Assembly: GCA_016181305.1 (NCBI GenBank)
Contig: JACOZN010000004.1
Coordinates: 1-48,135 of the forward strand
Source of the DNA: Candidatus Woesearchaeota archaeon
Lineage (GTDB): Archaea > Nanobdellota > Nanobdellia > Woesearchaeales > GW2011-AR4
Direction: 5' to 3'
DNA: 48,135 bases
Each line of letters begins with the position of its first letter. The first letter of the stretch is position 1. Shown here in pieces: positions 2,489 to 2,867 of this stretch. Both the position numbers and the translations under genes were made by a program. The notes below the pieces were generated by a model. That model did not search any database, had not been told where the DNA came from, and saw only the letters and a list, made by a program, of their open reading frames with translations.

Positions 2489-2656
2489 CGCCGCGGCTGG
2501 GATTTTCACCCAAGAGGATATCCTTCAAAGGATTTGTTCGCAAAAATCGAAGATTTTTGGAACCCCGAAAATGCTATGCATTTTCGACGGAACCCAGACG
2601 TCCTTGCGGACAGGGAGTTCTCAGTCCCCCGCTCCTCCGGATTGAGCGACCGCGGC
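2489..2656 (-). tRNA. tRNA-Leu(GAG) interrupted in the T-loop
   Basis: Read on the minus strand, a class II tRNA folds. The acceptor is GCCGCGG (2656-2650) with CCGCGGC (2496-2490). The D-stem is GCTC/GAGC with a GG-containing loop. Anticodon GAG lies at 2622-2620 in CTGAGAA. The long variable arm is GTCC-GCAA-GGAC (2611-2600). The T-stem is CTGGG (2597-2593) with CCCAG (2501-2497). An 84-nt insertion splits the T-loop; removing it leaves an 84-nt tRNA with the consensus loop TTCAAAT. No CCA is encoded. Oddities are a G at the discriminator position (Leu tRNAs normally have A) and an imperfect anticodon stem (A-C mismatch, or an 8-nt loop). It may be a functional intron-containing gene or a pseudogene. 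A TATA-like element lies at 2679-2688. Confidence 0.75.
2506..2589 (-). other. 84-nt insertion in tRNA-Leu T-loop (putative noncanonical intron)
   Basis: The insertion lies between tRNA positions 56 and 57 if the mature loop is TTCAAAT. It folds by itself into three small hairpins: CGAAAATGC/GCATTTTCG (2586-2566), CAAAAATC/GATTTTTG (2559-2541) and ATCCT/AGGAT (2533-2520). Archaeal tRNA introns normally show a bulge-helix-bulge. Here only a relaxed version can be drawn: the T-stem, a TTC/GAA helix and an AAT bulge, with no inner helix. Splicing is therefore uncertain. Confidence 0.5.
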
Positions 2657-2678
2657 ATGAAAAGCTTTAAATACTAGC

Positions 2679-2696: not shown

Positions 2697-2733
2697 GGGT
2701 TCTCAGTCTCCTGTTCTGCCGTGATTGAGCGGC
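2697..2733 (-). repeat. Degenerate copy of the tRNA-Leu 5' half
   Basis: About 40 nt upstream of the tRNA, on the same strand, a 37-nt stretch repeats the D-arm and anticodon-arm region. The shared words are GCTCAATC and GACTGAGAAC, in the same order and at nearly the same spacing. No matching acceptor, variable arm or T-arm follows. It looks like the remains of a duplicated tRNA-Leu gene. The rest of the interval 2734-2867 is AT-rich and shows nothing else I can name. Confidence 0.55.
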
Positions 2734-2867
2734 TTTTATTTTTATTTAATAAGTGTGAGCACTTGCCCTTTAAATATTTCAGCCAAGAATGTTCAGTGCT
2801 TGTAGAGTATATATTTTGTAAAATAGGAATCGTAATTTGATAGTTGAAAGGTTGTTTGAGATTATTT

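Follow-up and report, generated by a model that had tools for sequence, protein, structure and literature searches.

The 48,135-nt stretch of Candidatus Woesearchaeota archaeon DNA analysed here (GenBank assembly GCA_016181305.1, contig JACOZN010000004.1, positions 1 to 48,135; hereafter the window) carries, on its minus strand at 2656-2489, a class II tRNA gene with the anticodon GAG. Directly upstream of it, and pointing away from it, lies a predicted gene for a small RNA complementary to the anticodon arm of this same tRNA. Judged by its sequence, the tRNA gene is a member of a large family of serine-type tRNAs (class II, G73) found in Woesearchaeota, with anticodons for hydrophobic amino acids; this family has apparently not been described so far. 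In our best reading, to which we assign a probability of roughly 0.68, the locus encodes a dedicated serine-type tRNA together with a divergent antisense RNA that would mask its anticodon arm. This reading is grounded in the anatomy of the locus, its conservation, the matching of seeds to anticodons and the orthogonality of the resulting pairs.

An initial annotation had described the gene as a tRNA-Leu(GAG) with an 84-nt insertion in the T-loop. The presence of a T-loop insertion in a class II tRNA of a DPANN archaeon was confirmed: when 2506-2589 are taken out, an 84-nt tRNA remains, with the acceptor GCCGCGG/CCGCGGC, a variable arm, the T-stem CUGGG/CCCAG, the T-loop UUCAAAU and G73. The gene was called neither by ARAGORN nor by Rfam, because of the insert. 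A covariance model built from relatives scored it at 87.4 bits (E 1e-16). Homologues in the same genus share 72-79% identity in exon 1, and compensatory changes among relatives were observed at 4/4 pairs of the anticodon stem, so the gene does not represent a chance match. All close homologues in named genomes come from Woesearchaeota; the source genome itself comprises 1.07 Mb in 22 contigs and is 78% complete.

The leucine identity did not hold. The anticodon is indeed GAG, yet the tRNA combines G73 with an acceptor and variable arm of the serine type, in place of A73 and a leucine-type acceptor, and the canonical tRNA-Leu(GAG) is found elsewhere in the same genome (L007; GCGGGGG, A73). The same division is seen in a complete related genome (G304), which also holds a broad set of canonical tRNAs: its leucine tRNAs begin with GCG and carry A73, and its serine tRNAs begin with GCC and carry G73, like the window family. 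Family members therefore have the body of a tRNA-Ser (G73, class II arm, GCC... acceptor), with NAN anticodons instead of those for serine. A second intact tRNA-Leu(GAG), together with a lack of spliced reads, had been expected to mark the window gene as a pseudogene. Such a second gene was found (L007), but genes of this type are conserved in many genomes, so the type as such is not a pseudogene.

The same features bear on whether such a body might accept an amino acid other than serine, such as leucine, or might serve outside the ribosome as an aminoacyl-tRNA donor or a regulatory tRNA-like RNA. Class II arms are common to leucine and serine tRNAs, and mischarging with leucine is described for the nematode nev-tRNAs, which have variable arms (PMC4300185). 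The separation of leucine and serine tRNAs in G304, with the family on the serine side, argues against this explanation, which we consider improbable.

A covariance model of the window-type gene including its intron (model R1) identified full-length genes of this kind in many of the order's families, while the weaker matches were ordinary serine tRNAs. Outside the order, the best matches checked (G428, G406; L304, L305) were ordinary tRNA-Ser genes with T-loop introns. One hundred members were read, and the family counts given below are out of these. Their anticodons are GAA (27), CAG (19), GAU (16), GAG (16), AAG (9), GAC (5) and others (8), and the conserved positions include A35 (96), A37 (97), U33 (88) and G73 (97). 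With A35-type anticodons on a serine body, the family would therefore read hydrophobic XUX codons. Counted by genome-wide searches, there are up to ~14 copies per genome (~14 in G304).

The most unusual feature of the locus, the adjoining small-RNA gene, had been overlooked, and in this respect the initial annotation was incomplete. Most members are preceded by a sequence resembling a D-arm and anticodon arm in broken form, and the anticodon loop of this copy is identical to that of the tRNA downstream. The exact heptamer of positions 33-39 recurs upstream in 61/100 members, compared to 0.8% of shuffled upstream regions and 0.8% of heptamers taken from other loci. Unusual loops are copied as well: UGAAUCC (L120), CGAAACC (L122) and UGAUACG (L130). 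On the antisense strand, these copies follow a common layout, composed of (i) a B recognition element (BRE) of the RNAAR type, (ii) TTTATATA or TTTAAATA, (iii) a spacer, (iv) a segment complementary to the anticodon loop and stem, and (v) a T-run, commonly preceded by a GC hairpin derived from the D-arm complement. The BRE pattern (R-N-A-A-R) is present on the antisense side only, and a T-run of >=10/12 was found in 58/61 members with the small-RNA gene. The distance from the antisense TATA box to the complement of position 39 is nearly constant (median 24 nt, interquartile range 23-25), whereas that from the TATA box to the tRNA varies from 6 to 78 nt. In L029, L127, L130 and L140, other DNA parts the TATA box from the tRNA, yet the TATA-seed distance is 24-27 nt. 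The possibility that this TATA box is the tRNA's own promoter was rejected, as the start would fall in the D-arm and the spacing from the tRNA is not conserved.

To predict the small-RNA units, only the promoter and the T-run were used, and the heptamer was ignored. The units find their own tRNA as the best partner of 100 in 40/57 cases, and among the top five in 52/57. The mean duplex energy with the own tRNA is -22.9 kcal/mol, compared to -9.5 kcal/mol with other members of the same genome, and within four genomes the own pairing is the best in 21/21 cases; the pairs are thus orthogonal. Ordinary tRNAs of G304 pair far less with the predicted small RNAs. Four genomes share one syntenic locus; its tRNA has the anticodon AAG in two of them, GAG in a third and CAG in the fourth, and each seed is altered to match.

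An alternative source of such matching would be tandem tRNA duplication, the upstream 5'-half copies being relics that stay similar through gene conversion or re-duplication and yield no functional RNA. The copies match their own tRNA in the D-arm too, and those at L027 (G017) look fused, as repeat recombination would give. A relic would not be predicted to have an opposite-strand BRE and TATA box, a spacing fixed at 24 nt and a U-run past the copy, nor to keep its TATA-seed distance despite the intervening DNA at the four loci named above. We therefore regard simple duplication as an unlikely origin of the whole structure. Several other candidates were rejected: a split or trans-spliced tRNA that would draw on the upstream half (the anticodon-stem strand of the copy often mismatches the 3' strand of the tRNA), an integrase scar (the structure is common to many families), gene linkage as a clue (the neighbours differ) and a viral carrier (one exact pattern was searched for and was absent from viral contigs).

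In members without a separate antisense gene, the intron often opens with CCTTTCGG just past the T-loop; the other strand reads CCGAAAGG, followed by the TATA-like TTTTTGAA or TATTTGAA, and this promoter-like motif is located 24 nt from position 39. A purine-rich leader ahead of these tRNAs forms a U-run on the antisense strand. CTTTCG (antisense CGAAAG) stands beside the T-loop in 23/39 members without the small-RNA gene, compared to 1/61 with it (p 3e-11), and an upstream T-run is present in 17/23 motif-bearing members, compared to 5/36 control tRNAs (p 5e-6), both p-values taking the loci as independent, though they have common ancestry. From these motifs we infer that the antisense RNA of such members starts inside the intron of the tRNA gene, and that in the lineage of the window it has moved to a separate copy. 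The T-loop site lies one promoter-length from the anticodon, which is one possible reason for the presence of an intron there.

A poor anticodon stem had also been pointed out in the window gene. The mismatch at 31-39 is real; it is common in relatives with an upstream small-RNA gene, where the pair is kept in 33/61 members, and rare in those without one (kept in 36/39), so it is not peculiar to this copy. C39 is found in 48/61 members with the separate gene. The relaxed 31-39 pair and C39 would fit an antisense-strand start site that prefers G.

The 84 nt within the T-loop do not form a single insertion at 2506-2589, as had been proposed. The tRNA product was correct and the boundaries were not: the segment consists of a 54-nt insert, A57-A59 of the tRNA and a conserved 30-nt intron (Table 1), and the earlier cut points yield the same product only because AAAU(CC) occurs at either end. 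The reported chain of three hairpins was reproduced in the minimum free energy fold of the precursor (z = -4.77 compared to shuffled sequences). Of the two explanations offered previously, an intron at 56/57 lacking a standard bulge-helix-bulge (BHB) motif or a palindromic element, both components proved to be present, as the T-loop insertion is an intron and a palindromic insertion, one within the other; the intron, however, is at 59/60 and, once the 54 nt are left out, has a strict BHB. Same-genus relatives, as shown by alignment of the locus, carry the same gene without the 54 nt, reading CUGGGUUCAAAUCC ... GGGUGAAAAUCCCAG, and their intron forms a strict BHB that is cut at 59/60 to give UUCAAAU. 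The BHB pairs, including those of the T-stem, are all kept in 12/12 relatives, with U-G variants within the central helix.

The 54-nt insert is placed between C56 and A57, within one strand of the BHB central helix. With these 54 nt omitted, a strict-motif scan found a single motif, at 59/60, which restores UUCAAAU (hBHBh: a 4-bp helix and two 3-nt bulges). With the 54 nt present, the scan found no motif that removes the insert and gives a canonical T-loop, and a strict BHB for the insert itself was rejected on this ground. The 5' hairpin of the insert, TCGAAAATGC..GCATTTTCGA, resembles at least four other sites in the genome (85% over 34 nt). A splicing endonuclease is present in the genome, with matches to its domain PF01974 found in G000, G003 and G304.

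It is an even chance that the window copy, taken alone, is a dead tRNA, killed by the insertion of a mobile palindromic element. The broken H strand of the BHB, the outcome of the scan and the dispersed copies of the hairpin all point in this direction. On the other hand, the acceptor, T-stem, intron and antisense small-RNA gene of the window copy are all intact, and the relatives L032 and L038 bear other hairpin insertions in the same tRNA. Irregular motifs are also accepted by archaeal splicing endonucleases of the epsilon2 type (ARMAN-2; PMC12397907), which would matter here if the source genome encodes that type. For the window copy to function as a serine-type tRNA under antisense control, the 54-nt insert would have to be removed first; otherwise the tRNA would stay inactive.

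Table 1. Elements of the tRNA locus and the divergent small-RNA gene in the window
Feature	Position	Strand	Evidence
tRNA exon 2 (U60, T-stem 3' strand, acceptor 3' strand, G73)	2489-2502	-	
Conserved 30-nt intron at 59/60; strict BHB without the insert (H UUCA/UGAA, bulges AAU/AAU, outer helix CUGGG/CCCAG)	2503-2532	-	scan, relatives
A57-A59 of T-loop, exonic	2533-2535	-	alignment, BHB scan
54-nt insert at 56/57, two hairpins, in this genome only, related to dispersed palindromic repeats, interrupts BHB H strand	2536-2589	-	alignment, repeat copies
tRNA exon 1 up to C56 (acceptor, D-arm, anticodon arm, variable arm, T-stem 5' strand, UUC)	2590-2656	-	homologues, compensatory changes, BHB scan
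Anticodon-loop heptamer 33-39, UGAGAAC, complement of small-RNA seed	2617-2623	-	
Anticodon GAG (34-36)	2620-2622	-	
BRE-like element TGAAAAGC of small-RNA promoter	2658-2665	+	
TATA box TTTAAATA of small-RNA promoter, 25 nt ahead of seed	2666-2673	+	
Predicted antisense small RNA, ~50 nt, divergent from tRNA	2697-2747	+	
Seed GUUCUCAGUCUCC, complementary (one G.U) to anticodon loop and 5' anticodon stem of own tRNA	2699-2711	+	
Small-RNA terminator: hairpin GCCGTGATTGAGCGGC (2718-2733) and T-rich run	2718-2747	+	sole terminator-like site in 2400-2900
Probable TATA box of tRNA transcript, TATTTAAA, on far side of small-RNA gene	2769-2776	-	
Motif CACTGAACAT upstream of tRNA TATA box; relatives have CACTGGACAT ahead of same TATA box	2789-2798	-	

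The CACTGGACAT motif is kept before the TATA box of these tRNAs in L033, L048, L052, L054, L058 and L116, and is possibly the site of a regulator. Several further observations concern insertions in related loci. The dispersed palindromes that share the hairpin TCGAAAATGC..GCATTTTCGA with the 54-nt insert are located on four contigs of the source genome (L296-L299), in which the Arg GCG and Leu UAA tRNAs (L022, C19:98392; L020, C1:54748) also have T-loop introns fitting a strict BHB at 59/60. The insertion in L032 and L038 (G010, G006) is a hairpin, GTGAC...GTCAC, situated between the variable arm and the T-stem. In L046 (G003:C4, locus ~1430-1720), a tRNA-Ser(CGA) has a T-loop insertion that itself contains another, complete tRNA-Ser(CGA) flanked by the inverted repeats ACTTGGAATTGCAA/TTGCAATTCCAAGT, so that one tRNA is nested inside the other. 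In L029 (G014:C44), the tRNA is directly preceded by a short insertion that ends in 12-bp inverted repeats, CTAAACTTTTGC/GCAAAAGTTTAG, and is bordered on each side by TATGC repeats. At L027 (G017:C8), a fusion joins the small-RNA copy with the 3' part of the tRNA, as recombination at the anticodon loops would yield, and no intact gene was seen there.

If the small-RNA gene acts as we propose, its divergent promoter would produce an RNA of ~50 nt, with its start complementary to tRNA position 39 and its 3' end in a U-run, usually after a hairpin. The 5' end of this RNA would anneal to the tRNA across the anticodon loop and the 5' side of the anticodon stem, and this pairing should prevent folding, maturation or decoding of the tRNA. 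A tRNA transcript started at the far promoter (2769-2776) crosses the small-RNA gene, so its leader would provide a second binding site for the antisense RNA. When free, the tRNA would be expected to insert serine at Leu, Phe, Ile and Val codons, with harmful effects unless it is restrained by the antisense RNA. Transcription of the small RNA, silencing, serine charging and purpose are all inferred from sequence.

As to purpose, one like that of a toxin-antitoxin system, with a mistranslating tRNA and an RNA antitoxin, appears the likeliest, at somewhat less than even odds. More specifically, and a little more tentatively, this could be a toxin-antitoxin system made of RNA alone, with a serine tRNA for hydrophobic codons as the toxin and an antisense RNA that covers the anticodon, present in many orthogonal copies across Woesearchaeota. 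The constancy of A35, with positions 34 and 36 variable, agrees with selection acting for damage and not for the reading of one particular codon. It also has to be considered that regulated mistranslation may be useful, the serine tRNAs diversifying proteins at a level set by the antisense RNA; the intact tRNA architecture, the conserved U33 and A37, the several copies per genome and the anticodon changes at the syntenic locus would agree with this. Serine in place of a hydrophobic residue is, however, among the most disruptive of exchanges, and no benefit was seen in this analysis, which makes such a role doubtful.

Several points weigh against a serine-type tRNA masked by its own antisense RNA. 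Both the tRNA transcript and the antisense RNA are predicted from DNA, and serine charging is presumed from the known identity features, G73 and the variable arm. The D-arm part of the upstream copy is also closer to its own tRNA than to others (9.2 vs 5.6); as this part is locus-specific, gene conversion or a recent duplication may account for some of the identity. The intronic BRE-like motif could instead be a conserved intron hairpin, and 16/100 members have neither the exact copy nor the intron motif.

Parts of this arrangement resemble known systems. Like type I toxin-antitoxin systems, the window family has an adjacent gene pair, a small antisense RNA and several orthogonal copies per genome, and the many orthogonal antisense pairs recall type I families. 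The adjacent antisense RNA is here indicated by complementarity, a predicted promoter and a predicted terminator. The toxin of type I systems is a small protein, and its mRNA is the target of the antisense RNA, whereas the target in the window family is a tRNA of putative toxicity. The family shares with CreTA the character of an archaeal RNA-only module acting via tRNA supply. CreT sequesters rare tRNAs with a mini open reading frame, and CreA is a CRISPR RNA variant that works with Cascade (PMC8501985); in the window family, by contrast, the suspected effector is the tRNA itself and its partner a plain antisense RNA.

With regard to the tRNA, the window family differs from the non-canonical introns at 59/60 known in Thermoproteales in occurring in DPANN Woesearchaeota, in the apparent antisense promoter within some members' introns, and in the second, nested insert of the window copy; the position and the strict BHB are alike. 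As in the window family, the Candida tRNA-Ser(CAG) is a class II tRNA with an anticodon that misfits its body. To our knowledge, neither this tRNA nor the nematode nev-tRNAs have an antisense partner or a T-loop intron, unlike the window family. The nev-tRNAs are likewise class II tRNAs with a misfitting anticodon (PMC4300185). Introns in the T-arm of archaeal tRNAs have been reported (PMC12397907).

In the open-access literature searched, no match was found for tRNA introns of Woesearchaeota, for antisense RNA to a tRNA or for a toxic tRNA with an antisense partner, and antisense control of a tRNA via its own anticodon loop is not described there. If the small RNA is made, the locus would offer a clean, testable case of a partner RNA that switches tRNA activity. 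The predicted tRNA sets of these genomes would then include up to ~14 genes per genome that are not to be counted as ordinary decoders. If the tRNA is serylated, archaea of a large, uncultured and probably host-dependent group would possess a built-in device for mistranslation.
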